DNA from: Bacteroidales bacterium
GTDB lineage: Bacteria > Bacteroidota > Bacteroidia > Bacteroidales > UBA932
Reading direction: 5' to 3'
Length of the DNA stretch: 64,000 bases
Assembly (NCBI GenBank): GCA_017400135.1
Contig: JAFPVJ010000019.1
Span: 62,001 to 126,000 of the forward strand
Part shown: positions 1,449 through 19,841 of the stretch, piece after piece
Position numbering within the stretch: the stretch's first letter is position 1
How the letters are laid out: every line of letters starts with the position of its first letter
Translations under genes and position numbers: made by a program
Notes under the pieces: model-generated
The model's input: only the letters and a program-made list of their open reading frames with translations
What the model was told of the DNA's origin: nothing
Databases searched by the model: none

Positions 1449-4400
1449 ATGAAAAAGACAACGCTTCTTAAAAGACACAAAAACTTACCACCTTTCATAT
1501 TATGGAAGGGGCTTATAGTCGTAGGACTGTTCATATCATCTCCTATTTTATTTGCTCAGTCAGGTTGGCAAAAGGATAGTACTGTAACAATAACGCCCGA
1601 AGGGGATACAATCATTTCATATAAGCTAAAAGACATAGATTTCGGCCAAAATGTCATTTGTAGCTACGCTGAAAAGAAAACCCTGACGGAGAAAGAAAAG
1701 GAGAAGATTTACAAGCAAAACCGCGAGGACAAGAAGGCGGCACATCTTCGTCAACTGGAGGCTCTTCGAGAAAAGAGAGCAAGCGAACCTTCCCGGAGTG
1801 GAAGTTATTCTGTTGGGGAGATTCCTCTGTCTTCTGGAGTCTCTCCATCCGGAGCCAGGACATATCAGATTCCTATTCCCACCGCTCCAGGTATCCCATT
1901 TTCTCCAACGGTTTCACTGGTCTACAACAGTCAGGGGGGTGATGGTGCAGCTGGGTATGGGTGGGATATTGCCGGCGTTCCAGCTATCTGTTTAATCAAC
2001 CAGAATGTATATTATCACGGGCAGGCCAAAGCTGCCAATGTTAATAACACGATTGATCCGGTTTTTGCTCTCGATGGCGTTCCAATCGTTGAGAACGACG
2101 ATCCCGCTACTTCCCAAAACTATCCATTTGCTACTGCCAGGGGTCATATCCTTGTTTCACGGCAGCTGAATAATCAAGGATATATCAAGTCCTTCACAGT
2201 TCTCTACCCGGATGGCAACAAAGGAGTTTTCGGATCTGTTGTGAACGATCTTGACTCTAATCTTCCGAGTTATCCTCTTGTTCGTTTGGAAAACAGTCAA
2301 CAAGATAGTATTGTTTTTCGCTATTTGCCGGGATTATTCCATTTCGAGCGCATTCTTACATCCATTCGTTATGGGCATGACTCATCCGGATCGCCATCGG
2401 CAACAATTGAATTTACCTCTCAATCATCCATCAATTATGTTCGCAAATTCTTTGCTGGTTTGGATGTCTCTTGCTGGGAAACTATATCGAGTATTGAATC
2501 TCGTTTCGGAACTTCGGTTTTAAGTCGTTATGATCTGACTCATGAAGTCCGTGATAATGTTCGCTTGCTTACCCGGGTTGATTGTTCTTCCGGAGGAGAA
2601 CAGATTCCGCCACTGACCTTCACCTATATGGCGCAGGCTATGCTCCCAGAGTATCCGGATACCCTTATCGTCGATTCAACCAAGCGGGTGTGGTCTTCCT
2701 ATCCTTCCCAAGTCGGGGTCCATACGAAACGGGGAAAGTTCATCAGGGGCCGTTTCGAAGACGGTATACTGTCGTATCCGTATGGTTCCACCTATGATGC
2801 CGTTAAAAAGGTGTTGTGGAACCGTAAGTATGGGAGTCCTTACCCCGAAGATCAGCCAATTCTCGTCGCGGCCCTATTGCAGGATATTTCCTTGGTGGAT
2901 AACACGATCCTCTCCGGTGCGGGATTTCAGACCGTCGAGTGCGTTGACGTTGACGGAGACGGGGCGGACGAGATCGTACGTGTTAACTTTGGTGAATCCA
3001 GCGCAACGCGCAGTCCGTTGAATCTGTCTGTATACAAAGTCAATCCATACGGAAGTCCAGTTCTCCAGTATTCCTTCACTGTCCAGTTACAGGGGGTTAT
3101 TACGGAAGGCAATTTTCACAGCCCCTATCGGAGACAATATTTCTGGGGAGATTATGACGGTGACGGAAAAGTGGAGCTTCTGACTATTGCTCATGATAAG
3201 AATAGCCATGATAAGGCGCAGACCTGTTATGCTGCGCTGATTGACATTGACGGCAGGCAACTCCTGTCGGAAGATGTTCTTTTTACCTTCACGAAAGAAG
3301 ATGATGAAATCGGGAACATCTTCACTTTCGACTATGACGGAGATTCCAGGACAGAACTTTGCCAGATTATGTCTTCGGGACTGCGGGTTTACCGTCTGGG
3401 AAATAATGGTCATTTTACACTGGGCGGAAGTTATTCCAATGTTTACTTATACACCTCAACTCTACCTCGTTTTACAACGGACCTGAACGGCGACGGTTAT
3501 TTAGATTTGCTTAATCCTCCAGCTTGGGGTGGAGATGTATGGAATGTGTATGTCTTCAACGGGAACAGTTTTGAGATTCTCTCCTTTCATTTGACGGATT
3601 ATGATTCCGAAGCAAACTATCTTTTCATTGACGTCAATCGAGATGGCCTTTCCGATCTTGTCAAAGTCCACGAAAGCACGACTGATATTTTCCTGAATAA
3701 AACCGGATTTGAGTTCGATTCGGCTCACACGTCTCGCGGAATCCTTTCCGGGACGAACGGAATTGCGGTCGCCAATGTTGCAGATCCATCAGGAATGAGC
3801 GCTTTTATCAAGTTGGATGGATTGGACCTTAAAGTCTACACGTGGCCCAATTCTTCCCAGGAGATTCGTTCCGTTTACTATTCCGAAGACAGCCACTCCC
3901 GGGTCACTTTCAATGATTACACCTACCTCCCGGGAAAAAGTGGATGCTGGTCAGACAACATTACCGTCGACAACTCCGCTGGATTCATTCAGCGTTCCAT
4001 TCCCATCCACGTGCTTCAGCAGGAGATATCAAATCAATCCCTTTCCGGAAGCGAGTATGTCTGGATGGATTATGAGTACCGCGACCCTGTCGTCCATAGC
4101 TTCGGCCTGGGTTTTTGCGGCTTTTCCCATATCCGAACCTATGACAACCTGGGTGGCCCTCCCGAACGTGTCACGGAAACATTCTATGATCCCCAGCGTA
4201 TGGGGATTGTCACGGAAGAGCGCCATAAGGTCGGAGTTCTTTCCTCTCCTTGGTCCACGACCACCTATACCTACGATGACCACTCGACCCCACATGGGAA
4301 ACTCTCTCCCCGACTGACTCGTACCGTATCGACGGATAGCAGGACCGGCATAGGTACGGACATCATTTATGGCCCATACGACAATTATGACTTCCCGCTA

Positions 4401-7400
4401 CAAGTATTGACGCAGAAATATGTCACCCCGGACACGGTTGCGACCTACGAGATACTGTATCGCACCTACCTGCACAGTACTTCTCCCTCTAAATACGTCC
4501 TCGGAGTTGTGACCGAAGAGTCCGTTGTCCGAGAAAGGGACGGTGATGCGTGTTACTCCTGGAAGGAGCGGGACACTACGTCCTACGACAGCCTGTTGCG
4601 TCCGGTCAGACGTCGGCATCTGGTGGGGGAATATAACTATGCCACAGATACTGTCGCTTATGATCCGACAGGGTTACGGGCACGGATCCGGGCCGCCAGG
4701 CAGGCCAGAAGGGAAACCCTGCGAGAAGTGATCGATTCCGTGACAATAGAAATCCTCGACGCGGACAGCCTGGTTTCCGAGACCCGCTGGACCTACGACG
4801 CTCACGGTAACGTCATCTCCGAAAAGACAGCTCCCCATGGCGCAAGCGTTTTTACCGGAGATACGCTGGTCTATGACAGTCTTGGACGGAATCTCCTTTC
4901 CAAAACCGACGGCCTCGGCCGGACCATTTCCTTTTCAAACTACGACAAGTTCGGCAACCCGGCTTCTTCCACCGACCACAAGGGACGTACGACATCCTAT
5001 ACCTACGATGCCTGGGGCCGCCTGATCCAGACGATTCTGCCTGACGGAACGGTCGAGGCAACTTCCACCGCCTGGGGTGGATCAGGCCTCTATACCGTCA
5101 CCCGTACAGTCACGGGGGCGCCCGAATCCATTACCCATTATGACGCCCTTGGGCGCGAAATCCGGGGCGGGGTAAAACGCTTCGACGGTCAGTGGCAGTA
5201 CATGGACAAAGAATATGATGCCCGGGGACGGCTGTATCGCGTATCTCTTCCATATCGTGGAGCATCGCCCTCCCTCTGGAACGTCTATGTCTATGACGAC
5301 TACGACCGTCCGACCAGCATCACCGAAGCCTCCGGCAAAGTCTCAACCTGGTCCTATTCCGGAAGAAGTACGACGATGTTCAAGGAGGGTATTACCTCTA
5401 CCTCCACGACCGATGCTTTCGGGGCTGTTTATGAAGTGGAAGACGGAGGAGGAACCATTCTCTATGGGTTGCGTGATGACGGGCAGCCGTATCTGATTAC
5501 GGCGCCGGGTGAGGTCTCTACCACCTTTGCTTATGATGGCTTCGGGAGGCAGATCGAAATCTCCGATCCCAGCGCCGGCACCCGGACCGAACAGTGGACC
5601 TGGAACCCGGATGGCTCATCCACGGTGGTCAGGACCAATCCCAATGGCTCCGTCACGACCCATGCGGACCGCTTCGGCCGGACGACCCTCGTGGAGCGCA
5701 GCGGGGGGCACAGCACTGCCTATACATACGGCAGTGATGGCCTGCTTCAGTCGATGATCTCCAGCAACGGAGCCGACCGGGTCTATACGTACGACGCTTA
5801 TGACCGGGTGGCGACTGCCACGGACAGCGTGGCTTGTTTCGTGGGGACCCGCTGGATCCGCAAGACGTTCACCTATGGGGCGGGAAGTGTCGTGTCGAGC
5901 ATCAAGTACACCTCCCCGGACGGAGACATAACGACCGAGACCTATACCTACGCCAACGGGCACAACACCGGGATTACCCTGCCGGACAACACGAAAGTCT
6001 GGTCCCTGGTCTCGGAAAATGACCTGGGCGCTCCGACCCAAATCCAGTCCGGCCAGGTTACGCGCGAGTACGGTTACACTGCTACGGGACTGCCCACTTA
6101 TCGAAAGATGGGGAACCCCTTCAACGGGGGCCTCGGTGCGCTCCAGCACTTTACCTATCAGTTTGACCCACAAACGGGCAACCTGATGTCCCGTGCCGAC
6201 GTCAACCATAACCAGGCTGAAACCTTTACCTACGATGCCCTGGACCGGCTCTCATCCATCAACGGACGGACGATCACATACGACAACGCCAAGGGTAACA
6301 TCACTGCCATCGGCGGAGTCGGGACGATGACCTACGGCAACTCGTTGCACCCCTATCGGATCACAGGGATGACACCGGTGGCTGACTCGTTGATTTCCTT
6401 CGGGACACAAAGGATTACCTACACATCTTTCGACCGACCGGCGACCATCAACGAGGGGGCCGATTCCGTAACATTCAGTTACGGATGTGACGGGGAGAGG
6501 GTGTCGATGAATGGAATTGTGACAAACGGGATATTCGTCTCCACCTACGCGACTGATTACATCGGGGACCGCTATGAATGTAAATGGGATGATAGTATAG
6601 AGCCGATTCGGGAAATCCTGTATCTCGGTGGCGATGCCTATTCAGCCCCGATGGTCTACGTCAAGCAGGGGTATGGCAACTGGACGCTGTACAACATCGG
6701 ACGGGACTATTTGGGAAACATCACGCAGATAGCCTATGCCAACGGATTGCCCTTCGCCGAATACAGCTATGATCCCTGGGGTCGTCTGCGTGACCCGCAG
6801 ACCCTCTCGATCTATGGCCGGGGACACGAGCCGACGCTCTTCCTCGACCGGGGCTTTACTGGCCACGAGCACCTTCCCCAGTTTGGGCTGATCAACATGA
6901 ACGCCCGGCTCTACGATCCGCTTGTGGGGCGTTTCCTTTCTCCGGATCCCTTCGTCCAGGATCCCGGCTTCTCCCAGAACTACAATCGCTACTCCTATGC
7001 GCTCAATAATCCACTAAAGTATAGCGATGAAAGTGGCGAGATTTTTTTCTGGAGTTTTAATGGTAAAACATTGGAATTAGGATGTAGTTTTCTTTTCTTT
7101 GAAGTAGGTATTAGTTATACGTTCGGGACAAAAGAGGATCAATCCTTGGGTTTTTTCGTTGGTATAGGATTTCGAACGGGTAGCTTTTTTTATGAGTTAT
7201 CTGCATCAGCCCGGATTACTATTGAGTATAAGTTATATAGTAGAGAAGCAACTTTTTCATCTCAATTACAGGCAACCGCATCTTTGGGGGATTTTCGAGC
7301 AAATGCCGCTATTACATATAGCATGCTATTAGATCAAACCCGCAAAGAATCTGTCAGTGCCTCTTTGGGATTATCGTATAACCGATTTAAGAATATTAAT

Positions 7401-7775
7401 CTTAGTTCCTCTTATAAATATTCGAGAGATTTTGATGAAGATTATGGTGAACACAAACTTTCTATGGGACTTGATAGTCCCATCTATCTTAAGACGTTAA
7501 AAACCGGACTTGCACTAGGTGTTGAGGCATCTATGACTTTCAAAAAGAATGAAGATATAAAATATACGTTAGATTTTACCTCTTTAGCCATGCCTCAAAA
7601 TGAGCCATCAAGAAAAGGCCTCAATGCCGACTATATTTATAATAAAGTTCAGCCGCTAAAAAAGAGTTTTGGAGGGATGAACAACAAAACTCTAAAATCT
7701 TTTTATGAGCTGGAGTTTCGTTCAATTATTGATCAATTAGAAAGAAATAGAGACAAATCATCCCATAAAAAATGA
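1449..7775 (+). CDS. SpvB/VCBS-Rhs (YD-repeat) surface protein with variable C-terminus
   Basis: A 2108-residue exported protein. It has a signal peptide ending near SSPILFAQ (about residues 1-37), a charged linker, and an SpvB/TcB-like block at about 125-200 (GARTYQIPIPTAPG, SLVYNSQGG, GYGWDIAG). Calcium-type FG-GAP/VCBS repeats follow at about 499, 568, 628, 678 and 728 (DVDGDGADE, DYDGDGKVE, FDYDGDSRTE, DLNGDGYLD, DVNRDGLSD). A long run of YD repeats (YTYDAWGRL, YAYDGFGRQ, FTYDALDRL) closes with the Rhs core end RLYDPLVGRFLSPDP and YALNNPLKYSD at about 1820-1858. The last about 250 residues are unlike the rest: AT-rich DNA and alternating short beta strands of no family I recognise. In known Rhs proteins the core forms a shell around such a tip, which is often a toxin. 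The stop overlaps the next start (ATGA). Use of Sec export makes a T6SS effector unlikely. Confidence 0.9.
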   Translation: MKKTTLLKRHKNLPPFILWKGLIVVGLFISSPILFAQSGWQKDSTVTITPEGDTIISYKLKDIDFGQNVICSYAEKKTLTEKEKEKIYKQNREDKKAAHLRQLEALREKRASEPSRSGSYSVGEIPLSSGVSPSGARTYQIPIPTAPGIPFSPTVSLVYNSQGGDGAAGYGWDIAGVPAICLINQNVYYHGQAKAANVNNTIDPVFALDGVPIVENDDPATSQNYPFATARGHILVSRQLNNQGYIKSFTVLYPDGNKGVFGSVVNDLDSNLPSYPLVRLENSQQDSIVFRYLPGLFHFERILTSIRYGHDSSGSPSATIEFTSQSSINYVRKFFAGLDVSCWETISSIESRFGTSVLSRYDLTHEVRDNVRLLTRVDCSSGGEQIPPLTFTYMAQAMLPEYPDTLIVDSTKRVWSSYPSQVGVHTKRGKFIRGRFEDGILSYPYGSTYDAVKKVLWNRKYGSPYPEDQPILVAALLQDISLVDNTILSGAGFQTVECVDVDGDGADEIVRVNFGESSATRSPLNLSVYKVNPYGSPVLQYSFTVQLQGVITEGNFHSPYRRQYFWGDYDGDGKVELLTIAHDKNSHDKAQTCYAALIDIDGRQLLSEDVLFTFTKEDDEIGNIFTFDYDGDSRTELCQIMSSGLRVYRLGNNGHFTLGGSYSNVYLYTSTLPRFTTDLNGDGYLDLLNPPAWGGDVWNVYVFNGNSFEILSFHLTDYDSEANYLFIDVNRDGLSDLVKVHESTTDIFLNKTGFEFDSAHTSRGILSGTNGIAVANVADPSGMSAFIKLDGLDLKVYTWPNSSQEIRSVYYSEDSHSRVTFNDYTYLPGKSGCWSDNITVDNSAGFIQRSIPIHVLQQEISNQSLSGSEYVWMDYEYRDPVVHSFGLGFCGFSHIRTYDNLGGPPERVTETFYDPQRMGIVTEERHKVGVLSSPWSTTTYTYDDHSTPHGKLSPRLTRTVSTDSRTGIGTDIIYGPYDNYDFPLQVLTQKYVTPDTVATYEILYRTYLHSTSPSKYVLGVVTEESVVRERDGDACYSWKERDTTSYDSLLRPVRRRHLVGEYNYATDTVAYDPTGLRARIRAARQARRETLREVIDSVTIEILDADSLVSETRWTYDAHGNVISEKTAPHGASVFTGDTLVYDSLGRNLLSKTDGLGRTISFSNYDKFGNPASSTDHKGRTTSYTYDAWGRLIQTILPDGTVEATSTAWGGSGLYTVTRTVTGAPESITHYDALGREIRGGVKRFDGQWQYMDKEYDARGRLYRVSLPYRGASPSLWNVYVYDDYDRPTSITEASGKVSTWSYSGRSTTMFKEGITSTSTTDAFGAVYEVEDGGGTILYGLRDDGQPYLITAPGEVSTTFAYDGFGRQIEISDPSAGTRTEQWTWNPDGSSTVVRTNPNGSVTTHADRFGRTTLVERSGGHSTAYTYGSDGLLQSMISSNGADRVYTYDAYDRVATATDSVACFVGTRWIRKTFTYGAGSVVSSIKYTSPDGDITTETYTYANGHNTGITLPDNTKVWSLVSENDLGAPTQIQSGQVTREYGYTATGLPTYRKMGNPFNGGLGALQHFTYQFDPQTGNLMSRADVNHNQAETFTYDALDRLSSINGRTITYDNAKGNITAIGGVGTMTYGNSLHPYRITGMTPVADSLISFGTQRITYTSFDRPATINEGADSVTFSYGCDGERVSMNGIVTNGIFVSTYATDYIGDRYECKWDDSIEPIREILYLGGDAYSAPMVYVKQGYGNWTLYNIGRDYLGNITQIAYANGLPFAEYSYDPWGRLRDPQTLSIYGRGHEPTLFLDRGFTGHEHLPQFGLINMNARLYDPLVGRFLSPDPFVQDPGFSQNYNRYSYALNNPLKYSDESGEIFFWSFNGKTLELGCSFLFFEVGISYTFGTKEDQSLGFFVGIGFRTGSFFYELSASARITIEYKLYSREATFSSQLQATASLGDFRANAAITYSMLLDQTRKESVSASLGLSYNRFKNINLSSSYKYSRDFDEDYGEHKLSMGLDSPIYLKTLKTGLALGVEASMTFKKNEDIKYTLDFTSLAMPQNEPSRKGLNADYIYNKVQPLKKSFGGMNNKTLKSFYELEFRSIIDQLERNRDKSSHKK

Positions 7776-8887
7776 AACGATTTTTTTTATTATTGCTTAT
7801 CATACACCTCCAGGTGGCCATTCTTTCTGGTCAGAACTGTAGGTTATGGAAGGATGGCGCTTTGTTACAAAGTGATTTTGTGGAAATAAAGAGAGATTTG
7901 TCCATAGGAGAATTGAAATGGGGCATCTCTCTAGAAAAAGCCACTGCAAGAAGTGGAAATTTACGAGTCCATTACCATACTTCTGCTACTTATATGGATC
8001 CCAGTCGCTCTTGGGTCAGCCCTAATGGTTGGAATGAACCTACCAGGGAGTATTTGCAAACGGGTTTTGATTGGCTGGAACTTAATCGAAGAAAGGCCCA
8101 GCATGTGTTTTATACGGATCCGTCGGTAGATTTCTATAAACTGAAGAGTGAGTTAAGAACGGCTATGGAAACATATCGCAGAAACTGCGATAGTGGCAAT
8201 AACCTTACGGCAGTTTCCTCTTATCGGCAAATTGTTGACGAACAGATGGGTCTTTATGCTGATGACATGGACTCTCTATTTGTGTTAGCAAAACGTATTT
8301 CTCAAGTCCCATCTTCTTTTGGCTTTTTTGCCGGTTTCAGAAGCGACTGGAGCAGAGTATTCCCTCCAGGGATGACATATATTCCTTTCCTTGCATTCGG
8401 AGCAGACTGGCAGTACAAGAAGATTTGTCTTGAATTTGAGGCTATGTTTAATTTCGGACACATAAACAGCCCAAATGTTTCTTACAGAGATTCAGAACTG
8501 TCCTATGATTGGGAAAAAGATAAACCGTTTGGTGCGACAGGCTGGTGTTTCCGTGGCGGATACAGAGTATGTGACGGAAATTTTATGGTTATTATACCAT
8601 TTGCTGGTTTGAAAAAAGAAAACCTTTTTCAGCGCACCATTATTCCGAACGAGAAAGGAGATGGCATGGCGTCCAGTTGGATTGAAGGCATTGGAGGGCA
8701 AGTCGGATGTGCATTTCGCTTTAACTTGCGACGAGATTGTTTCTTATCAATTAAAGCGAACTCTCTTTATGAAACGGATATTACAATCTCCCTCTTTGGT
8801 GATCGACTTCAGTACAAAGGTGCCGGTTCAAGTTGGTCTATCAATCTTGGTCTATTGATTAATGTTTTTGAACACCTGTCTTTTTGA
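7772..8887 (+). CDS. Exported protein with predicted outer-membrane beta-barrel, Rhs partner
   Basis: A 371-residue protein with a signal peptide (MKRFFLLLLIIHLQVAILSG). Residues about 25-175 form a domain shared with the gene at 23049-24224: both contain GEL-W-IS, R-GNLR, MD---SW, QT-F---E--RRK-Q, and a D-GN---AV--Y segment. The C-terminal about 200 residues alternate short amphipathic strands and end in INLGLLINVFEHLSF, as in small outer-membrane barrels. The start codon overlaps the Rhs stop by 4 bases, so the two are translationally coupled. Position right after a variable Rhs tip would fit an immunity or presentation role, but the paralogue elsewhere has no Rhs gene beside it, so that role is only inference. 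No named family recognised. Confidence 0.8.
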   Translation: MKRFFLLLLIIHLQVAILSGQNCRLWKDGALLQSDFVEIKRDLSIGELKWGISLEKATARSGNLRVHYHTSATYMDPSRSWVSPNGWNEPTREYLQTGFDWLELNRRKAQHVFYTDPSVDFYKLKSELRTAMETYRRNCDSGNNLTAVSSYRQIVDEQMGLYADDMDSLFVLAKRISQVPSSFGFFAGFRSDWSRVFPPGMTYIPFLAFGADWQYKKICLEFEAMFNFGHINSPNVSYRDSELSYDWEKDKPFGATGWCFRGGYRVCDGNFMVIIPFAGLKKENLFQRTIIPNEKGDGMASSWIEGIGGQVGCAFRFNLRRDCFLSIKANSLYETDITISLFGDRLQYKGAGSSWSINLGLLINVFEHLSF

Positions 8888-8907
8888 ATTAAAAAAAATA
8901 TCTAAGA

Positions 8908-9255
8908 ATGATTCCTATTGTTAAATCATCCAGTCTTTTACGAAGATATTTGTCATTTCTTTTTATATTTCTGGCTCTATCTTCTAATGCACAAGAGCTT
9001 GTATTACCTTCTGTTGCATACACCTACGTTGCTGCCGGAAACCGGGTGACAACTATCTTAACGCTAGGGAACGATGGGTCGAGGTCCGCCTCTTCGATTG
9101 TTTCGCCTCTCAGCGGACAAAATGTCGAGAACGCGGTCACCAATTCCCGGAAAAATGACGTTTCTTCTGCAGATAATCCACAGAAACTCGTGGGTAATAT
9201 CGCCGATGAAAGAAAGAATCATCAGTCTTCAGAGAACAAACAACACGATTCTTAA
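8908..9255 (+). CDS. Small secreted protein with one YD-like motif
   Basis: A 115-residue protein with a signal peptide ending near LALSSNAQE. The mature part begins with VAYTYVAAGNRVTT, which resembles a single Rhs YD repeat (YxYDAAGNR) with Val in place of Asp. The rest is polar, low in hydrophobic residues and probably disordered (Ser/Asn/Lys-rich). From memory, small signal-peptide proteins with a YTYDAxGNR start are found beside Rhs genes in Bacteroides, sometimes with a T9SS sorting tail. No such tail is visible here. It is third in the Rhs operon, 20 bp after the barrel gene and 1 base before the FGE-like lipoprotein gene. Function unknown. Confidence 0.65.
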   Translation: MIPIVKSSSLLRRYLSFLFIFLALSSNAQELVLPSVAYTYVAAGNRVTTILTLGNDGSRSASSIVSPLSGQNVENAVTNSRKNDVSSADNPQKLVGNIADERKNHQSSENKQHDS

Positions 9256-9256
9256 C

Positions 9257-10426
9257 ATGAAACGAGTCGCTTTCATTTCCTTGATTCTGTTCTTCTTCGT
9301 CTGTTGTGACAGAGAGAAGGACGTCCCCGTAAGATGGTACGCTTACGGAATCCCAATCTCCGAACTATTCCTGCATGTATCAGATACAGAGAAGCTTCAA
9401 GTAGAAGATTCACCCGCTCAATACGGGCTTCCCGACATCTGGACCAGCGAGGACCCGGATATTGTTTCCGTGGATAGGAATGGGGTTATTACGGCTCTCG
9501 CGATAGGAGAGACAACCATCACAGTAAGGAGTTCCAGTAAAAAACTGAAGGAAGGGGTAGATTATGCGAACGCGTATTCCGCGCTTCGGGTTCATGTCGT
9601 GAGCGACGATGTCATTACATTTCGGATTTGCTGCCTGGAAATGATTCCCGTCAAAGGCGGAACCTTTGTGATGGGGAAAGAAGGTTACTCCATCAATCCT
9701 GCTCAGGAGGTTACTGTGAAAGATTTCAGGATTGCAAAATTCGAACTGAATCATCTTCTATATGACTTGTATAAGGGGAGTTATGGCCCCTTACTTGGAG
9801 ATAAAGAAGTCGATAATTATCGCGTGTACACCCATCATCCGGCCATAGGACCCTATGGCGCATTCGAAGAGATGATCAATCTCCTTAATGAAAAGACAGG
9901 GAAACGGTTCCGTTTTCCTACCGAAGCCGAATGGGAATGGGCGGCCAGAGGTGGCGTGATGGGCTTGGGTACTGAATATGCCGGAAGCAATGATTTGTCG
10001 CAGGTCGGATTATGGGGTGGCTCGCTCAATCTAAAAAGAGATATCAGGGGCTTCTATATCCCCTTCTCTCCCGACCGTTTTGGTTGGTGGGATGGATCGT
10101 CAAACTGGGGTTTGGATAATAGTCGTTTTGAGAGCGGACTATTCAGTCCCAATGAATTAGGCATTTATGATATGAGTGGGGGTGTCTCCGAGTGGGTTTC
10201 GGACCTGTTTCCGGATATAACGATCCAAACGGAAGACCTGGATCCTGATAACGGGGCACTCAGTAATTTGGTGAAAGGATGCCACTTTACAAAAGGGGGA
10301 TGTTTTTATTCGACCGCATCAGGATGTACTGTTTATGCAAGAGAGAATGATATCTATGGTGGGATCGTGGGGAGGGAGTCTCGTGTCGCCGGTCTTCGTA
10401 TAGTCCTTGACGGCCTGTCTGATTGA
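9257..10426 (+). CDS. Lipoprotein with Big_2 and formylglycine-enzyme-like (SUMF1) domains
   Basis: A 389-residue lipoprotein with a signal ending LFFFVCC (lipid Cys at 16 or 17). A Big_2-type immunoglobulin domain spans about 40-105 (WTSEDPDIVSVDRNGVIT, GETTITV). An FGE-sulfatase (SUMF1-like) domain spans about 125-385, with MIPVKGGTFVMG, RFPTEAEWEWAARGG, LGIYDMSGGVSEWV and RVAGLRIVL. True formylglycine-generating enzymes use a Cys pair near the C-terminus. Here the corresponding stretch shows one Cys, so catalytic activity is doubtful; in Bacteroidetes this fold commonly serves as a surface scaffold or binding domain. The ATG at 9257 follows the previous TAA by one base, so I chose it over longer in-frame options. 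Last gene of the Rhs operon. Confidence 0.85.
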   Translation: MKRVAFISLILFFFVCCDREKDVPVRWYAYGIPISELFLHVSDTEKLQVEDSPAQYGLPDIWTSEDPDIVSVDRNGVITALAIGETTITVRSSSKKLKEGVDYANAYSALRVHVVSDDVITFRICCLEMIPVKGGTFVMGKEGYSINPAQEVTVKDFRIAKFELNHLLYDLYKGSYGPLLGDKEVDNYRVYTHHPAIGPYGAFEEMINLLNEKTGKRFRFPTEAEWEWAARGGVMGLGTEYAGSNDLSQVGLWGGSLNLKRDIRGFYIPFSPDRFGWWDGSSNWGLDNSRFESGLFSPNELGIYDMSGGVSEWVSDLFPDITIQTEDLDPDNGALSNLVKGCHFTKGGCFYSTASGCTVYARENDIYGGIVGRESRVAGLRIVLDGLSD

Positions 10427-10484: not shown

Positions 10485-13475
10485 CTATCTCGGACCTCGT
10501 CCGCCCATCGGCTGGCCACCCATCGGCGGACCACCGAAACCACGGCCGCCGGGACCGCCCGGACCGCGCATACCCTCCCGGTTCATCGTGCCGAAACGCC
10601 AGGTCAGGGAAACGATGATATAACGGCCGAGGGTGTTGTTGAGCACCTCGGAATGATAGTTGGAAGCGTCCGTGACCATCAGGTTCTTCGACTGACCGAG
10701 GATGTCATAACCCTTCACGGCCAGGGTGAATTTCTTCTTAAAGAGAAGCTTCTGGATCTCGGCATTCCAGATATACTCCGAAGGCTGAGCGGTCGTATAG
10801 CCGCGGTACCAGTTATAGTTGAAATCGCTCTTGAGCGTCAGCCCGGCGAGATCCCAAGTCCAGGTGAGGGCCGCGTTGACCTGGTTGTTCCAGGTTGTGG
10901 TCAAGTCGTTGCCCGTCACGATCGTGTACCAGGAACGGCTTACCCGCGTGCGGCCGGAGGTGGAAACTTCGATCGCATCATTGCGGTACGTCAAGCGCAG
11001 GCGCTCCACGACATTGAGGTTATTGATGGTATTCAGGCCGAAATCGGAAGACTTCGCGATGTCCTTGTACTTGGCGAGGAACTGCTCCATGAAGTCATAA
11101 TAGTCCACGGTCGGATCCGGCATTCCGCTCATGTCGATGTTGGAACCCACGTAGTTGGAGGAATGGGACCAGCCCGTGCGGGCGAAATTCATCACGGTGA
11201 AGCCGGACTGACCGATCGGGATATTCAGATAGCCGTTGAGGCCGGCGTTACCGGAGGTGGGACCGTTGAAGGGCATCGAATACTGGGTACCCGTCTTGCT
11301 GCTCCAGGTTGCATTCACGATGGGATCCTGGACAAATCCACCCTCGTAATTGATATTGGCCGTAAAGAAGGTCTTCTTGTTGTTGTAGCGGAACTCGCCC
11401 CGGATCGAATGCGAGAAATAGGGCTTGAGGTCCGGATTACCGAAGGAGATGTTGAGCGGGTTGGTGATATCCGGCACCGGCATCAACTGGGAAGTCGAAG
11501 GCTGGTTGGAGTTGCCCCAATAGAAGGTCCGCAGGTTGGCGTTGTCATTGATTTCCCAGAAGATGCGGGCGCGGGGCGACCAGTTCCACGTGGGATTCTC
11601 ATACACTTTCGGCTCATAGGCCTGCCGCGTCGCATCCCACTTGGTCGTGCTGTTGTAGGTGTAGGTCGGGATGGCGGCAAAGCCGATCTGCGCGTTCAGG
11701 CCCTCTTTCTGGTACACCAGGTTGGCACCCATATCGTGACGCCGGGACAGGTTGATGATGCTGTTGGAATAGGTATAGTCCACGACGCCGCCCCGGGTCA
11801 GGTCGAGCGTCTCCTTGTTGGAAGTCGACTTGTTCCAGTTGTAACCATAATTGACTTCTGCGAAGAAGTGCTCGGCGATCGGCTCGGTGTAAGTCACGCG
11901 CCCCATCAGGGAATAACTCTTCTGGTTGCTGGTATAGGACTGGTCGATCACTTCCTTCGCCACCTCGCCTCCGTCATAGGTGTTGGTCAGGGACTGGTTC
12001 GCACCGACGAGATCGTTGTTGGACAGGCTGTAACGCGTCATCACGGTCATCGTGCGGCCGGGCTTGCCCAGGCGCTGGCGGAAGAGGAAGAAACCGCTGG
12101 TGGAAATGTTCTTGTTGGAGCCGTTGTTGAAACTGTTGCCGTCGTTGGTGTCGGAGGTGACGCCGCTGGCCGCATCACGGATCCGGGTCGCATAGTCGCT
12201 CTTTTCCCAGAAACTGCCCGTACCGAAGTTGAGACGGGGTTCGAAGAGGATGGAGGTATTCTCACTGAACTTATGCTCGAGACGGACACCGATGCGGTGG
12301 CCCGAAGAAGTCGTGTTGCTGGAGCCTTCGTTGTCGGACAGCAAGGTCCGGTCATCGTAATAGGTTTCCTTGTAGCTCTTCTCCGCGACATCCCGGGAAG
12401 TGTGGTTATAGAGATAATTGCCTCCCAGGTCCATCTTGTCGTCGAAAAGGGTCCAGGCACCGTTTCCACCGATCATATAGGAAGTGGTGATGCCGTTGCC
12501 GCCACCCCAACCGCCACGGCCGCGTCCCATGCCGCCGCCACCGCCGCGCATGCCCTGCATCATGGAGCCGGACAGGTCGTTGAAACCGCGGTTGTTGGTG
12601 TTGTTGGCGTTGATGACGAGGCTGAGCTGCTGCTTATCCGTGAAATTACCCATGAATCCGGCGGCCTGATAACGGTAGTCGTTGGGGACTTCGCCGACCG
12701 AGGAAGACTTGGACGCAGGCACGTCGTGGCCGCCGCCGAGGGAGAAGTTGCCGAACATGCCCTTCATCATGCCGGGCTTGATGTTGAGGTCGAGGATCGT
12801 TTCTTCCTCACCGTCATCGATGCCGGTGAATTCGGCCTGCTCGGACTTCTTGTTGACCACCTTCACCTTGTTGATGATCTTGGCGGGCAGGTTCTTGGTC
12901 GCCAGCGAAGGGTCGTCCAGGAAGAAGGTCTTGCCTTCGATCGTGATCTTCTTGATCTCCTGGCCGTTGACCGTCACGGTACCGCTTTCGTCCACTTCCA
13001 CGCCGGGAAGCTTCTTGAGCAGGTCTTCCAGCACGTCATTGTCCGTGGTCTTGAAGGAGGTGGCGTTGTATTCGACCGTATCCTTCTTGATGACGATGGG
13101 GTTGCCGACGGCCGAGACGTTGGCCGCATCGAGCACTTCCTTGTCGTCCGCCATTTTCAGCGTACCGAGATCCAGGACATCCTTGATCTCGAGCTCCGTG
13201 GAAATCGGCTTGTAGCCCATCAGCTCGGCCTTAAAGGTATATTGGCCCTTCTTGACCCCTTCGAACTTGACACGGCCGTCCTCCCCGCTGAGCACATACT
13301 TGTAGACCTTGGTCGAGCCTTTCGGCGTCAGGGATACCGTCGCGAACGGGACCGGATCGCCCGTCGACTCTTCGACCAGCGTCGCGGTGACGACATGATG
13401 GGACTGGGCGGCTGCCGGGATACCGGCGATCAGGAAACACACTGCGGCAACGGCCGCCAACAAAACTCTTTTCAT
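10485..13475 (-). CDS. Outer-membrane beta-barrel protein (carboxypeptidase-regulatory plus TonB plug-like)
   Basis: A 996-residue outer-membrane protein. It has a signal peptide (residues 1-24, ending AAAQ), a CarboxypepD_reg-like beta sandwich at about 27-105 (PVPFATVSLTPKG, GVKKGQYTFKAEL), a plug-like region at about 110-230 (LKKLPGVEVDESGTVTVNG, VNGQEIKKITIEGKTFF), and a long barrel rich in aromatic strands. A Gly/Arg loop (about residues 310-330) and a Gly/Pro/Met/Arg tail of about 30 residues follow the strand YIIVSLTWRFG. This belongs with the 'outer membrane beta-barrel, TonB-plug' proteins rather than SusC proper, and no SusD partner is nearby. The substrate is unknown. An in-frame TTG one codon upstream exists, but the ATG at 13475 is the better start. 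Confidence 0.88.
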   Translation of the reverse strand: MKRVLLAAVAAVCFLIAGIPAAAQSHHVVTATLVEESTGDPVPFATVSLTPKGSTKVYKYVLSGEDGRVKFEGVKKGQYTFKAELMGYKPISTELEIKDVLDLGTLKMADDKEVLDAANVSAVGNPIVIKKDTVEYNATSFKTTDNDVLEDLLKKLPGVEVDESGTVTVNGQEIKKITIEGKTFFLDDPSLATKNLPAKIINKVKVVNKKSEQAEFTGIDDGEEETILDLNIKPGMMKGMFGNFSLGGGHDVPASKSSSVGEVPNDYRYQAAGFMGNFTDKQQLSLVINANNTNNRGFNDLSGSMMQGMRGGGGGMGRGRGGWGGGNGITTSYMIGGNGAWTLFDDKMDLGGNYLYNHTSRDVAEKSYKETYYDDRTLLSDNEGSSNTTSSGHRIGVRLEHKFSENTSILFEPRLNFGTGSFWEKSDYATRIRDAASGVTSDTNDGNSFNNGSNKNISTSGFFLFRQRLGKPGRTMTVMTRYSLSNNDLVGANQSLTNTYDGGEVAKEVIDQSYTSNQKSYSLMGRVTYTEPIAEHFFAEVNYGYNWNKSTSNKETLDLTRGGVVDYTYSNSIINLSRRHDMGANLVYQKEGLNAQIGFAAIPTYTYNSTTKWDATRQAYEPKVYENPTWNWSPRARIFWEINDNANLRTFYWGNSNQPSTSQLMPVPDITNPLNISFGNPDLKPYFSHSIRGEFRYNNKKTFFTANINYEGGFVQDPIVNATWSSKTGTQYSMPFNGPTSGNAGLNGYLNIPIGQSGFTVMNFARTGWSHSSNYVGSNIDMSGMPDPTVDYYDFMEQFLAKYKDIAKSSDFGLNTINNLNVVERLRLTYRNDAIEVSTSGRTRVSRSWYTIVTGNDLTTTWNNQVNAALTWTWDLAGLTLKSDFNYNWYRGYTTAQPSEYIWNAEIQKLLFKKKFTLAVKGYDILGQSKNLMVTDASNYHSEVLNNTLGRYIIVSLTWRFGTMNREGMRGPGGPGGRGFGGPPMGGQPMGGRGPR

Positions 13476-13504
13476 CAAAAACCAACAATAACGTACTTTC
13501 CTTT

Positions 13505-13520
13505 GACACGCGCGCGTGTC
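13505..13520. repeat. Perfect 16-bp palindrome GACACGCGCGCGTGTC
   Basis: An inverted repeat without a gap lies between ruvC and the outer-membrane protein gene, about 30 bases upstream of the latter's ATG. Neither side has a proper T-run directly after it, so it is a poor intrinsic terminator. It could be an operator, a processing hairpin, or a weak stem ending ruvC transcription. Confidence 0.45.
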
Positions 13521-13538
13521 GAAGGTTTAAAGCGTTTT

Positions 13539-14099
13539 TTACTTTTTTACCCTATCCGGGTTGGCCGCCAGGAACTTTTCCCAGCTGGTAGCCGCCTGGG
13601 TACTGGTCAGCGGACTGGTCAACTGGTAAAAATGGCACATCGCAATGGCCAGCGCATCGGTGGCATCCAGCCATTTCTCGTCGATGCTGATCCCCAGCGT
13701 GCGTTGCACGATGAGGCTGACCTGCTCCTTGGAAGCGGCGCCGTTGCCGCAGATGGCCATCTTGGCCTTGCGGGGTGCATATTCGAAGACTGGGATGCCG
13801 CGGCTCAGCGCGGCCATCATCGCAGCTCCCTGGGCCCGGCCGAGCTTGAGGATGACCTGGGCGTTGTGCCCGTAGAACGGGGATTCGATCGCCAGGTCGT
13901 CCGGCCGGTGCAGTTCGCACAGGGCGCCAACCTTCTCGAAGATGCGGCGCAGCTTGACGTATGAATCCTTCTCCTTCCGCAGGTCCAGGACGCCCATGTC
14001 CACGAAACTGGGACGGCCCTTCCCATCCACACGGACAATCCCGAAACCAAGGATGTTGGTTCCGGGATCGATGCCGAGTATGGTGCGCGAATCAGTCAA
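13539..14099 (-). CDS. ruvC: Holliday junction endonuclease RuvC
   Basis: 186 residues, the usual RuvC length. It resolves four-way DNA junctions together with RuvAB during recombinational repair. The RNase-H-like fold is visible from ILGIDPGTNILGFGIV with the first catalytic Asp at residue 11, LAIESPF with Glu72, GRAQGAA, and the C-terminal DATDALAIAMCH acidic/His motif. The best start is a TTG at 14099, which overlaps the serS stop by 8 bases and gives the standard distance to the first Asp; no in-frame ATG is available at a sensible place. The overlap suggests coupling to serS. Confidence 0.93.
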   Translation of the reverse strand: MTDSRTILGIDPGTNILGFGIVRVDGKGRPSFVDMGVLDLRKEKDSYVKLRRIFEKVGALCELHRPDDLAIESPFYGHNAQVILKLGRAQGAAMMAALSRGIPVFEYAPRKAKMAICGNGAASKEQVSLIVQRTLGISIDEKWLDATDALAIAMCHFYQLTSPLTSTQAATSWEKFLAANPDRVKK

Positions 14100-15363
14100 T
14101 CTTGTCGAAGCCAGTGTACGGGCGAAGGACTTCGGGAATGACGATGCCTTCGGGGGTCTGGTTGTCCTCCAACAGGGCGGCGACCACGCGAGGAAGCGCG
14201 AGGGAACTGCCGTTGAGCGTATGGCAGAGCTGGATCTTGCCGTTCTCGTCCCGGTAGCGGAGGTGCAGGCGGTTGGCCTGGAAGGATTCGAAATTAGAGA
14301 CCGAAGAGATCTCGAGCCAGCGGCCCTGGGCGGCGCTCCAGAGTTCGAAGTCGTAGGTGATCGCGGAGGTGAAACTCATGTCCCCGCCGCAGAGACGGAG
14401 GATGCGATAGCGCAGGCCGAGCTTGTTCACGATTTCCTCCACGTGGGCGACCATGCGGTCCAGGGCGGCATAGCTGTCCTGGGGCTTCTCGACGCGGACG
14501 ATCTCGACCTTGTCGAACTGGTGCAGCCGGTTCAGGCCGCGGACGTCCTTACCGTAGGAGCCAGCCTCCCTGCGGAAACAGGGCGTGTAGGCGGTCAGCG
14601 CCTGGGGCAGCTCCTCATTCTGGAGGATGACGTCCCGGAAAATGTTGGTCACAGGGACCTCGGCGGTCGGAACCATGTAGAAATCATCCAGCGTGGCGTG
14701 GTACATCTGACCCTCCTTGTCGGGAAGCTGACCTGTGCCGAAGCCGGACGCCTGATTGACCATCACGGGCGGCTCGACCTCCTTGTAACCGTCGGCGGTG
14801 TTGCAGTCCAGGAAGAAATTGATCAGCGCGCGCTGGAGCTTGGCACCCTTGCCCTTGTAGACGGGGAAACCGGCGCCGGTGATCTTCACGCCCAGGTCGA
14901 AATCGATGATGTCGTACTTCTTGCAGAGCTCCCAGTGCGGCAGGGCGCCTTCCGGCAGCTGCACTTCGGGACCACCCATCTTGACGATCTCGTTGTCCTC
15001 GGCGCCTTTGCCGGGAGCGACGAGGTCGCAGGGGATGTTGGGCAGCAGGACCAGTTTGGCTTCCAGGTCACGGGCGGCCTGTTCGCCCCGGGCGAGCAGC
15101 GCGGAGGACTTGGCCTTCAACTCGGCGACCGCGGCCTTGGCGGTCTCGGCTTCCTCGCGTTTGCCCTGCTTCATCAAGGCTCCGATCTCGGCGGCCTTCT
15201 GCTTCTGGACGGAGAGGAGGGCGTCGCTCTCGGTCTGGCAGTTTCTGCGCTCGGCATCCAGGGCGAGGACCTCGTCCACGATGGCGGCGGCATCGAAATT
15301 CTTGATAGCGAGCTTCTTGATGACGAACTGCGGGTCGTCGCGAAGCATTTTCAGCGTCAGCAT
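14092..15363 (-). CDS. serS: Seryl-tRNA synthetase
   Basis: A 423-residue class II aminoacyl-tRNA synthetase that charges tRNA-Ser (and tRNA-Sec where present). The N-terminal about 110 residues form the long helical arm (alternating Ala/Glu/Lys, about 27-100) that grips the tRNA variable arm. The catalytic core shows TAEVPVTNIFRD, motif 2 FRREAGSYGKDVRGLNR, HQFDKVE, and motif 3 near NGSSLALPRVVAALLEDNQ. Length and motifs are normal. It lies upstream of ruvC, overlapping it, and downstream of rpmA by 84 bp. No clear promoter was seen in that gap. Confidence 0.96.
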   Translation of the reverse strand: MLTLKMLRDDPQFVIKKLAIKNFDAAAIVDEVLALDAERRNCQTESDALLSVQKQKAAEIGALMKQGKREEAETAKAAVAELKAKSSALLARGEQAARDLEAKLVLLPNIPCDLVAPGKGAEDNEIVKMGGPEVQLPEGALPHWELCKKYDIIDFDLGVKITGAGFPVYKGKGAKLQRALINFFLDCNTADGYKEVEPPVMVNQASGFGTGQLPDKEGQMYHATLDDFYMVPTAEVPVTNIFRDVILQNEELPQALTAYTPCFRREAGSYGKDVRGLNRLHQFDKVEIVRVEKPQDSYAALDRMVAHVEEIVNKLGLRYRILRLCGGDMSFTSAITYDFELWSAAQGRWLEISSVSNFESFQANRLHLRYRDENGKIQLCHTLNGSSLALPRVVAALLEDNQTPEGIVIPEVLRPYTGFDKID

Positions 15364-17727: not shown

Positions 17728-18957
17728 ATGAAAGGAAAGAAAAAGCTCTTGCTCCTGCTTACGGTCCTCCTGCTGGGGACGGGCGTCCGCGCCGCCACGG
17801 CTTACGTGTGGGAGGCGGTCCCCAACGAAGTCCTGTACGCCAACCTGCTGACTTACCTGAAGACGGTCCAGAACGAGCTGGTCGGCGAACCGGTCTATTA
17901 CATGGTCCAGCAACTGACCATCGAGATAGAGGCGACCTTCAGGAAAGACCCTTACGCCTGGATGACGCAGGTGCACAATTTCTGTAACACTCTGGAGAAC
18001 ATCTACCCGCCGGCTCTCGCCCATCCGAGCGTCACGCGCAGCGCCGACGACCCATACGAGAAGATCCGTCGCCACATCTTCCGTCTCCGCGACTTCCCCA
18101 TGCACCAGGTTTCCCTGACCAACGATGTCATCCAGCCCGCGGCAGGACAGGCCGACGCCTTCAACAAGGCCAACAAGCAGTGGCTGCAGCACAAGCGGGA
18201 GGAATTCTTCCAGTTCCTGAACGGCCCGCGCCCGAGCGGCGGCGAGTTGCAGCTCTTCAAACTCTACAGTTCCGGTTACGTCATGCGCACGAAAGATGCC
18301 TGCATCGGCATCGACCTCTGCTACGGGGAAGGCCTGTACGACGGCGCCCGCAAGGAGGAACTGGCCGACAAGCTGGACGCCGTATTCACCACCCACGGCC
18401 ACGGCGACCATTACGACATCGAACTCCTGCGCATGCTGCTACAGAAAGGGAAGGCCATCGTGATTCCTCCCCGGATGGAGTCATTCTTTACCGACTATCC
18501 CGGTGAAAAACACGTCTGGCGAGACAGCCAGCTGGAGCCGGTCCGGGTCGGCGGCGTCGCGGACGCCCAGGCCCAGATGTCCGGCCAGGGCGAAGAACCT
18601 TGCCTGCTCTATCTGATCCAGATCGGGGACTGGCGCATCGCCCACGTCGGAGATAATTCCTATCACGAGAACGAGAAGGCCTTTTACCCCAACCAACCGC
18701 CCGTCGACGTGATGATGAACCCCGTCTTCCAGGGCATCTTCGATTTCGCGAACAACCTCCGGACACCTTCCACCCCGGACAACACGTACCAGATTTACTT
18801 CAACCTGCACGAAAACGAGTGGCACCATACCATCGACGGACGCATGTCCTTCGAGTTCATGTACTGCCACAACGGGGCCCTGGGCCATCAGACTTTCGTT
18901 TACCCCTGCACCGCCATCTGTGACAACGGCGAGCACATTACCCTTTACAAGCCATGA
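17728..18957 (+). CDS. Exported MBL-fold (metallo-beta-lactamase superfamily) protein
   Basis: 409 residues with a signal peptide (MKGKKKLLLLLTVLLLGTGVRA). About 150 residues of predicted helix follow, then an MBL core. FTTHGHGDHYD at about 223-233 is the HxHxDH zinc motif. WRIAHVGDNSYH at about 309-320 supplies the later Asp, and a His-containing stretch (NLHENEWHH) lies near the end. Such enzymes hydrolyse esters, lactones, phosphodiesters and similar bonds; the substrate cannot be read here. The helical N-terminal half is not a domain I recognise. Its stop overlaps the next start by 4 bases (ATGA), forming an operon with a lipoprotein and a sulfatase gene. Confidence 0.82.
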   Translation: MKGKKKLLLLLTVLLLGTGVRAATAYVWEAVPNEVLYANLLTYLKTVQNELVGEPVYYMVQQLTIEIEATFRKDPYAWMTQVHNFCNTLENIYPPALAHPSVTRSADDPYEKIRRHIFRLRDFPMHQVSLTNDVIQPAAGQADAFNKANKQWLQHKREEFFQFLNGPRPSGGELQLFKLYSSGYVMRTKDACIGIDLCYGEGLYDGARKEELADKLDAVFTTHGHGDHYDIELLRMLLQKGKAIVIPPRMESFFTDYPGEKHVWRDSQLEPVRVGGVADAQAQMSGQGEEPCLLYLIQIGDWRIAHVGDNSYHENEKAFYPNQPPVDVMMNPVFQGIFDFANNLRTPSTPDNTYQIYFNLHENEWHHTIDGRMSFEFMYCHNGALGHQTFVYPCTAICDNGEHITLYKP

Positions 18958-19841
18958 GACAACCTATATCCCTTACCCTCATTGCATTGATGCTTGTCCT
19001 CACCGTTTCCTGCGGCGAGAAGCCAAATGGCGGCGGCGGAAAGACCCCCGAGGAAAAGACAGGTGCCGTCTGGAGCCTCCCGGCTCCCCTCGTCCAGAAG
19101 GTCGAAGTCAGCGCAGACGGCACCGTAATCGAGTCCTACGAATATACCTACGACGACCAGGGCCGCATGCTTTCGCTCCGCAAGACAGACAAGCTGTCGA
19201 ACACGGTGCTGCTGGACCTGCAGTACAGTTATCCCGACGACAAGGGGATGAAAGCGACCGGCAAGTTCTACCCGGTCACCAGCAACCGTTTCATCACGGC
19301 CGTCAAGGATAACGCCCAGAAGACCGTGAGTTACAACGGAAGCTGGTCGGGCGCCTGGTCATACGTCACCACCTTCGATGCAGGAGGCACGGCGACCGGC
19401 ACTTCCACGGATCCGGAATTCGCCGCCAAGGGAGGCCAGTATTCCTCCCAGGCGCATTACAGCGAGGTCTATACCGTTTCGGGGGGCTGCATCAGCCAGT
19501 CCGTGATGGGGACGGACATCGAATCGCGGACTTCCCTCAAATCTGCAAAGGCCTCCTCCGCTCTGACGGTCAACTATACCTACTCGAGCCGGGATGACAG
19601 GCAGAATTTCGCCGTCTATCTCTTCCCCAGCGAGTTCCCCGTGTGGGTCGCCGCCGGCCTGCCCGGTTGCAAGAAACTAATCACCGGGATCTCGATGGCC
19701 AGCGGCAGCGTCCCCTCCCCCGTCAAGACACAGATCGACTATTCCTTCGATACCAGCGGCAACATCGACACCGCCATCCGCACCGACCTCAACAACGGCG
19801 AAACCGTCCTGGTCCGGAACTACAAGTTCTTCTATCAATGA
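18954..19841 (+). CDS. Lipoprotein, DUF4595-like
   Basis: 295 residues with a lipobox (LVLTVSC, lipid Cys20) and a Gly/Lys spacer (PNGGGGKTPEEK). The mature part has many short strands with alternating polar and aromatic residues. The segment SYEYTYDDQGRMLSLRKTD recalls the repeated Y-YD--GR strands of the Bacteroidetes DUF4595 lipoprotein family, which is predicted to form a beta-rich sheet. I make the family link from this pattern only. It overlaps both the MBL-fold gene before it and the sulfatase gene after it by 4 bases, so the three are translationally coupled. Function unknown; likely at the cell surface. Confidence 0.7.
   Translation: MRQPISLTLIALMLVLTVSCGEKPNGGGGKTPEEKTGAVWSLPAPLVQKVEVSADGTVIESYEYTYDDQGRMLSLRKTDKLSNTVLLDLQYSYPDDKGMKATGKFYPVTSNRFITAVKDNAQKTVSYNGSWSGAWSYVTTFDAGGTATGTSTDPEFAAKGGQYSSQAHYSEVYTVSGGCISQSVMGTDIESRTSLKSAKASSALTVNYTYSSRDDRQNFAVYLFPSEFPVWVAAGLPGCKKLITGISMASGSVPSPVKTQIDYSFDTSGNIDTAIRTDLNNGETVLVRNYKFFYQ

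Follow-up and report, generated by a model that had tools for sequence, protein, structure and literature searches.

Organization of the Rhs locus

The system analyzed here is a four-gene operon encoding an Rhs protein, a barrel-like protein, a small YD protein and a lipoprotein, located in a 64,000-nucleotide (nt) stretch of contig JAFPVJ010000019.1 from a Bacteroidales bacterium (assembly GCA_017400135.1). The whole stretch is called "the window"; coordinates are positions in this window, and features lie on the + strand unless otherwise indicated. Lengths are given in amino acids (aa) and base pairs (bp), and "T9SS" stands for the type IX secretion system. The features of the locus were as follows:

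1423-1430, +: possible Bacteroidetes -7 promoter element (TAnnTTTG), TATTTTTG, a pattern match
1449-7775, +: Rhs gene, ATG start, 2108 aa (P0001)
1449-7037, +: Rhs shell (aa 1-1863), conserved in relatives, with the core motif NRYSYALNNPLKYSDESG at its end
7038-7772, +: variable tip, 245 aa, a predicted porin-like beta meander (approximately residues 1-180) plus a tail with one helix (216-241)
7772-8887, +: barrel-like protein gene, 371 aa, overlapping the Rhs stop (ATGA); product exported, with barrel strands predicted at its C-terminus (low-confidence model), candidate immunity protein or partner
8908-9255, +: small YD protein gene, 115 aa, 20-bp gap after the barrel gene; signal peptide and degenerate YD motif, a member of the Rhs-linked YD module without T9SS sorting domain, as read from motif and position
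9257-10426, +: Big_2 plus FGE-sulfatase lipoprotein gene (Pfam matches), 389 aa, 1-bp gap after the YD gene; probable island cargo, with a relative in the Rhs island of locus L156
10449-10477, strand unassigned: hairpin, possible shared terminator, between the operon and a convergent outer-membrane protein gene at 10485

The four open reading frames (ORFs), their order, the overlap and the two gaps, all reported in a first-pass annotation of this sequence, were confirmed by the ORF calls. The signal peptides that the same annotation gave to the four proteins also held: every N-terminus reads as a signal peptide by eye, and in the lipoprotein cysteines follow the N-terminal hydrophobic stretch (by eye). 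The home-made signal heuristic used in this work missed the signal peptide of the Rhs protein, which has a long charged start. No Pfam, NCBIfam or PADLOC model matched the 371-aa and 115-aa proteins at the thresholds used, and PADLOC gave nothing for any of the four proteins.

The promoter element at 1423 was matched to what we take to be the Bacteroidetes -7 consensus. The hairpin, described in the first-pass annotation as a strong terminator, is a plausible terminator but statistically not special: it scored on the minus strand, in a scan that returned 8 terminator-like sites vs. 8.9 expected in shuffled sequences. The operon was indeed richer in AT than its flanks, though unevenly: the GC content was 46% in the first part of the shell (1449-4100) and 57% in the RHS part, equal to the window average (57%), and then 35% in the tip, 41% in the barrel gene, 42% in the small YD gene and 48% in the lipoprotein gene. 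The difference between the two parts of the shell points to a possible mosaic inside it.

Domains and relatives of the Rhs protein

The Pfam and NCBIfam matches of the Rhs protein exceeded their cut-offs for SpvB (26.6 bits vs. 22), FG-GAP_3 (49.9 vs. 26.9), RHS_repeat (91.5 vs. 22) and Rhs_assc_core (63.3 vs. 32.5); the SpvB match was short (model positions 2-50 of 287), yet over the cut-off, and the Rhs core was located at aa 1774-1863. The protein thus comprised a signal peptide (by eye) followed by SpvB and FG-GAP_3, RHS repeats and a core, with tips that exchange among relatives. By these domains, the 2108-aa protein fits the TcdB/TcaC (SpvB-propeller-RHS) class of polymorphic toxins, which had already been described in 2012, reportedly by Zhang et al. 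The sections of the 2012 paper cited here (Biol Direct 2012, PMC3482391) list the class for Bacteroidetes and give it, as in the window, a signal peptide, SpvB, an integrin-like propeller, RHS and a variable C-terminal toxin, so that the label "undescribed" of the first-pass annotation had to be abandoned. Tips listed there include HExxH metallopeptidases, papain-like domains and the all-beta Ntox23; a porin-like barrel tip, a barrel immunity protein and a YD escort, as proposed for the window, do not appear in those sections.

Of 398 genomes of the family, 73, counting the window genome, contained Rhs relatives at E ≤ 0.001, some of them core fragments only. A core profile search of the genome contigs returned 449 places, and the best 80 were kept as named loci; these best 80 of 449 span uncultured Bacteroidales, Dysgonomonas, Parabacteroides, Bacteroides, Tannerella and Sphingobacterium. 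Similarity to the window Rhs mostly ended at the core, where the tip begins. The shells of 48 full-length Rhs proteins aligned in all 1128 pairs (median identity of 47% over the last 700 aa), their tips in 66 of 1128. The core aspartates D134 and D161 (numbering of alignment A2) were invariant in 10 of 10 rows, and three of 20 tips scanned with Pfam were over the cut-off for toxin families (Ntox23, AHH and TNT).

The genes following the tips were analyzed in 111 sequences (ORFs whose core escaped the pattern were not counted), from which 119 tips were reduced to 104 by removal of identical first 80 residues, and to 96 after dropping 8 that ran off the contig. A same-strand next gene started at -80 to +250 bp in 91 of these 96 complete, non-identical tips, and at 30 bp or less in 75. 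The location of its product, called with the home-made heuristic, tracked the tip type, as expected for immunity. Tips with a HExGH motif (n = 25) were followed by a lipoprotein gene in 18 cases, by another signal-bearing product in 5, by a product without signal in none, and by no such gene in 2; tips with a glycine-rich first part (n = 52) by products without signal (31), with signal (16), lipoproteins (3) or none (2); and the other tips (n = 19) by products without signal (8), with signal (5), lipoproteins (5) or none (1). In the sections cited, PMC3482391 gives no immunity protein for several tips of the HExGH type, and lipoproteins in that role are described there as exceptional. At the level of sequence, a conserved shell with an exchanged tip and a linked next gene is the anatomy of a polymorphic toxin, not of a display system.

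Several arrangements of Rhs genes and tips were seen along the way. HExGH tips followed by a small lipoprotein gene were present in loci L055, L153, L156-L158, L173 and others. Arrays of free-standing Rhs tips beginning inside the conserved core were found in L047 (three, 10737-15246) and L063 (two, 4648-6961; oriented coordinates); most of these tips have their own next gene and would be ready material for tip exchange by recombination. The Rhs gene was split into two ORFs in different frames in L049 (G354:C84) and L062 (G007:C26), and L042 (G000:C27:1-6000) showed, in the same genome, a second short ORF (292 aa) with an Rhs core of another type.

The first-pass annotation had also proposed that the Rhs protein is delivered by Sec and not by the type VI secretion system, and this was supported. 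An ordinary type VI Rhs effector would have in common with the window protein only the RHS shell and core; the latter carries a signal peptide and SpvB, and no PAAR family was found among its Pfam matches at E up to 0.1. TssD, the one component model used, had no match in 20 Rhs-bearing genomes (including the window genome, 88.6% complete), vs. matches of the same model in 4 of 149 genomes of the order. We consider a type VI effector extremely improbable.

The variable tip

The AlphaFold2 model of the tip was a meander of 12 strands, and the protein ended on a tail of approximately 65 residues, not on a barrel strand. Its beta-amphipathy was the third highest among the 96 tips, five of which, including that of the window, were predicted to be of barrel type. 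In locus L213 a barrel-like segment similar to the window tip was followed by a longer domain. Sequence relatives of the tip at E ≤ 0.01 were detected in 6 of 295 genomes of the order: the window genome itself and five weak matches. On the basis of the model, the tip is predicted to form a porin-like barrel of the outer membrane, followed by a short tail.

A signal peptide at the start of a protein and a predicted 12-strand meander at its end could also mean that the tip is no toxin: after Sec export it would insert into the producer's own outer membrane and anchor the shell in an autotransporter-like manner, the nearest form of the display idea of the first-pass annotation. The absence of TssD and SprA matches from the genome also favors such an anchor, since another way out is needed. 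However, in relatives this same slot is occupied by tips of unrelated kinds, known toxin domains among them, the core aspartates expected to cut the tip off are conserved, and neither the terminal tail nor the further domain after the barrel-like segment of L213 suits an anchor. We regard this explanation as improbable.

The gene following the tip

The gene at 7772-8887 is the most likely candidate for an immunity protein or protective partner of the tip, judging from its overlap with the tip and the predicted export and barrel end of its product. BLASTP (E ≤ 0.001) found no relative of it in 20 fetched loci, in 21 more loci or in the 80 named loci; most, though not all, of these 41 fetched loci contain an Rhs gene of this type, and some genomes are in both the unnamed and the named sets. 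Searched alone against the genome contigs, it gave no relative among 14 pattern matches. Relatives of this gene as a conserved Rhs partner in general were rejected (0 of 20 fetched loci of its own family beside Rhs, 0 of the 41 other loci and 0 of the 80 named loci). Nor was a second copy of the pair formed by the tip and 7772-8887 found, either in the tip search (six genomes of 295, five weak and one own) or in the 20 family loci. A paralogue was present in the window:

23049-24224, +: resident paralogue, sharing 29% identity with the barrel protein; native GC content (57%), not beside Rhs, approximately 15 kb away

Since this paralogue has native GC content and is 29% identical, the low-GC copy behind the tip probably came in together with it and did not arise by a recent local duplication.

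The outer-membrane partner of the first-pass annotation was retained in part: an exported, probable-barrel partner recurs in one other species, but the family of 7772-8887 is not generally linked to Rhs. The second case is locus L139 (Bacteroidales metagenome-assembled genome, MAG, Tb.RUG.440), with an Rhs with a barrel tip, an exported 246-aa protein and a signal-peptide YD protein running off the contig. The 246-aa protein is related (24% identity, E ~1e-17) to a protein of the L156 Rhs island that is just over the OprF cut-off.

In loci L113-L118, L120, L121, L123 and L124, the barrel family occupied a conserved site by argF-like and proAB-like genes (by eye), and may be a housekeeping envelope protein.

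The YD module and the type IX secretion system

The small protein encoded at 8908-9255 has a single YD-like motif, AYTYVAAGNR, which is degenerate (V for D). A module of this kind (a signal peptide plus one YD-like motif) was located beside or fused to 41 of 50 full-length Rhs genes (those longer than 1800 aa with the start in hand): fused at the Rhs N-terminus in 9, directly upstream in 28 (counting the L169 gene despite its degenerate motif), downstream in 4 (the window, L052, L157 and L139) and in none of these positions in 9. In the window it lies two genes downstream of Rhs, whereas it is usually upstream. A strict YD regular expression recovered 32 of 50; the figure of 41 includes a looser motif, accepted after reading the upstream genes, a looser reading that has no background count. 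The strict expression matched 0 times in 294,634 bp of Rhs-free sequence (both strands) and likewise 0 times when 727,613 bp of Rhs loci were read on their minus strand. Fused and split states of a module are the usual sign of a physical partnership, which suggests that the YD module partners with Rhs.

Large proteins were encoded directly upstream of Rhs in L188 (1094-2989) and L206 (139-3249), with the YD motif at 478 of 631 and 923 of 1036, respectively, and a match to a home-made sorting-domain model in their last part. In the window, a 295-aa ORF at 18954-19841 (+), so far unrelated to the Rhs operon and 8.5 kb downstream of it, has a lipoprotein-like start and the YD-like motif YEYTYDDQGR.

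Among 30 YD proteins scanned with NCBIfam (that of L139 being partial), 18 had a T9SS type-A sorting domain over the cut-off and 12 did not. The protein of the window matched no NCBIfam family at E up to 0.1, and hence no type-A sorting domain; the Rhs protein itself gave no match to the TIGR04183 sorting domain at E up to 0.1, and SprA_N was absent from the search of the window genome (88.6% complete). SprA was found in 2 of 20, 11 of 21 and 12 of 21 Rhs-bearing genomes (partly overlapping sets). With the home-made sorting-domain model, built from 10 such upstream proteins, an upstream sorting domain was detected in 16 of 24 loci with SprA vs. 4 of 26 without (50 loci, p = 0.0004). At the NCBIfam cut-off, the domain was present in 16 cases with SprA and 2 without, and absent in 1 with and 10 without (p = 0.00003); with L161, L199 and L212 added, the domain-lacking proteins numbered 4 with SprA and 10 without (p = 0.0008). 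SprA states were assigned by hand, and L169 was scored like L165, which is recorded as coming from the same isolate.

These simple counts overstate the case, because few independent events lie behind them. On a tree built with FastTree from the 50 shells, SprA changed 3 times and the sorting domain 7 times, and the window Rhs fell in a SprA-less group of 21 rows. Tests with independent pairs had 3 pairs at most, a number that cannot reach significance, and gave no clear direction: random pairings averaged 0.0 with SprA vs. 0.4 against for any domain (of 2 pairs), and 0.7 vs. 0.4 for an intact domain. Several loci speak against the link to T9SS. SprA coexists with a YD protein devoid of a sorting domain in L161, L199 and L212, and with a domain that stays under the NCBIfam cut-off in L202; L214 (a MAG) and the Sphingobacterium locus L179 have a domain over the cut-off without SprA; L193 combines SprA with a fused YD motif; and L191, L218, L211 and L060 have SprA and no directly upstream YD gene (a YD gene with sorting domain lies ~2.3 kb upstream in L191, one without domain 0.9 kb upstream in L218, and L211 has almost no upstream sequence). 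Overall, the sorting domain goes mostly with T9SS-bearing genomes, with few independent events behind this association. In L161, L199 and L212 the motif of the upstream YD protein is close to the C-terminal end.

T9SS recognizes a sorting domain at the C-terminus of a protein. In Rhs proteins this end is the exchangeable tip, so we propose that a separate protein supplies the sorting domain in trans. This protein, small, exported by Sec, encoded upstream and bearing one YD motif, would dock on the YD shell and take the whole cocoon to the cell surface through T9SS. With the signal split in this way across Bacteroidota, T9SS-less lineages would keep the YD protein without domain or fuse the YD motif to the Rhs N-terminus; 8908-9255 would be a remnant, and the payload in the window would be of a new kind, a porin-like barrel inserted into the outer membrane of the victim and countered by the barrel protein. 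Taken as a whole, this proposal is tentative and rather unlikely.

The lipoprotein and the four-gene arrangement

At E ≤ 1e-20, the lipoprotein encoded at 9257-10426 had relatives in 3 of 199 genomes of the family, the window genome among them. BLASTP at E ≤ 0.001 detected none in the 20 loci or the 21 more, and one in the 80 named loci. The best relative seen (38% identical) lies near the Rhs cassette of L156, so the lipoprotein partner of the first-pass annotation has one parallel and otherwise went without one in the loci searched. The protein is probably island cargo. Besides this relative, the island of L156 (5508-15284) contains a HExGH Rhs tip with its lipoprotein, an OprF-like barrel gene and an Rhs-core protein of a second kind.

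The first-pass annotation had joined the four genes into a dedicated surface display and release system. Their spacing is that of one transcription unit, L139 keeps three of the four gene kinds in order, and L156 has the relative of the fourth gene just mentioned. None of the other loci examined, however, contained all four genes, although some of them end before the flanks are complete, and relatives of the barrel and lipoprotein genes were missing from the 20 and 21 loci and present in 0 and 1, respectively, of the 80 named loci. A four-gene system is thus very improbable. What stands is a real, Sec-exported operon that is most likely not type VI and belongs to a described toxin class, not to an undescribed surface system.

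Interpretation of the locus

The explanation we favor, with a probability of approximately 0.58, is a Sec-exported toxin of the TcdB/TcaC class with a porin-like barrel tip, accompanied by 7772-8887 as immunity protein or partner, a YD protein that is a remnant of a T9SS escort, and a lipoprotein that is probable cargo. It builds on the domain architecture, a shell conserved among relatives, a tip that varies behind a core retaining both aspartates, the tight linkage of the next gene and that of the YD module. By analogy with known Rhs and Tc proteins, the RHS part would fold as a cocoon holding the tip, which aspartyl self-cleavage at the core would free. The tip may then act at the outer membrane of the target, as a pore or, given the longer domain behind the barrel-like segment of L213, as an entry way for what follows it. 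The protein encoded at 7772-8887, exported, apparently barrel-ended and overlapping the tip, might protect the producer, and was probably imported together with the AT-rich tip. The YD protein may escort the Rhs shell to T9SS in trans in other genomes, 8908-9255 being its T9SS-less remnant in the window genome.

Several observations weigh against this explanation. In the fold search of the tip, the best Foldseek match had an E-value of 0.0042 and none reached 0.001; the model was built on a 3-row alignment, residues 180-245 had pLDDT values below 50, and a resemblance to porins will be expected of any amphipathic meander. The model of 7772-8887 was poor (mean pLDDT 44) and unsuitable for a fold search. 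Its family is present in 47 of 393 genomes of the order, where, of 20 loci fetched, none lay beside Rhs and 10 adjoined an argF-like gene (named by eye); its link to a toxin tip was seen once. The 246-aa partner in L139 matched no Pfam family and had no detectable homology to 7772-8887, and its probable barrel nature derives from the L156 relative just over the OprF cut-off. The explanation also gives the shell no route across the outer membrane.

Alternatively, the Rhs protein may be such a toxin but 7772-8887 no specific immunity protein: it could be a bystander, or an envelope protein swapped in, such as a version of the target barrel that resists the tip, the resident version being encoded at 23049-24224. 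BSAP proteins follow a similar logic, with a resistant version of the target encoded beside the secreted antimicrobial. The wide, elsewhere Rhs-unlinked family and the native-GC paralogue approximately 15 kb away agree with this; the exact immunity position with ATGA overlap, like that of the next genes of most tips, and the low GC content common to 7772-8887 and the tip do not. We consider this reading possible but unlikely.

The favored toxin resembles several known systems. In Tc toxins, the B-C subunits form an RHS cocoon with aspartyl self-cleavage and are loaded on the TcA syringe, with no signal peptide route; WapA is a Sec-exported Rhs of Gram-positive bacteria with a variable toxin and an immunity gene, in single-membrane cells that pose no outer-membrane problem. 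Rhs1 of Photorhabdus laumondii (PMC8636562, as far as the cited sections go) likewise has an RHS cocoon round a C-terminal toxin and aspartyl self-cleavage at the core, but is loaded on VgrG of the type VI system and has no signal peptide route. The TANFOR toxins (Jana et al. 2020, PMC7073777) are also from Bacteroidetes, with a signal peptide, a downstream immunity gene and T9SS substrates as neighbors; they differ in the N-terminal domain, and no RHS shell is described in the sections cited. The Apibacter SpvB-TcdB Rhs genes have the same N-terminal domains as the window Rhs and lie beside T9SS type-A sorting-domain genes, from which the authors inferred an association with T9SS (mSystems 2021, PMC8125069); the cited sections of that account do not include a YD repeat in the adjacent protein, fused versions, a barrel tip or a T9SS-less state.

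To the sorting-domain adjacency known since 2021, the present analysis adds the YD motif, the fusions with Rhs and the derivatives lacking T9SS. The YD link was stated in no title or abstract opening found in a literature search that covered the full texts of few papers, with subscription journals mostly outside its scope. What looks unusual in the window locus is the porin-like tip, the barrel-like partner gene alongside and a gene of the YD family, which in relatives often has the export address that the Rhs lacks.

The recurrent partner with YD motif and sorting domain is a concrete, removable candidate for the export step of Rhs in Bacteroidota, and the fused YD-Rhs versions point to the shell as the docking site of the YD protein. 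An outer-membrane barrel payload would, if true, extend the antibacterial effectors of gut bacteria by a class that has no need to enter the cytoplasm.

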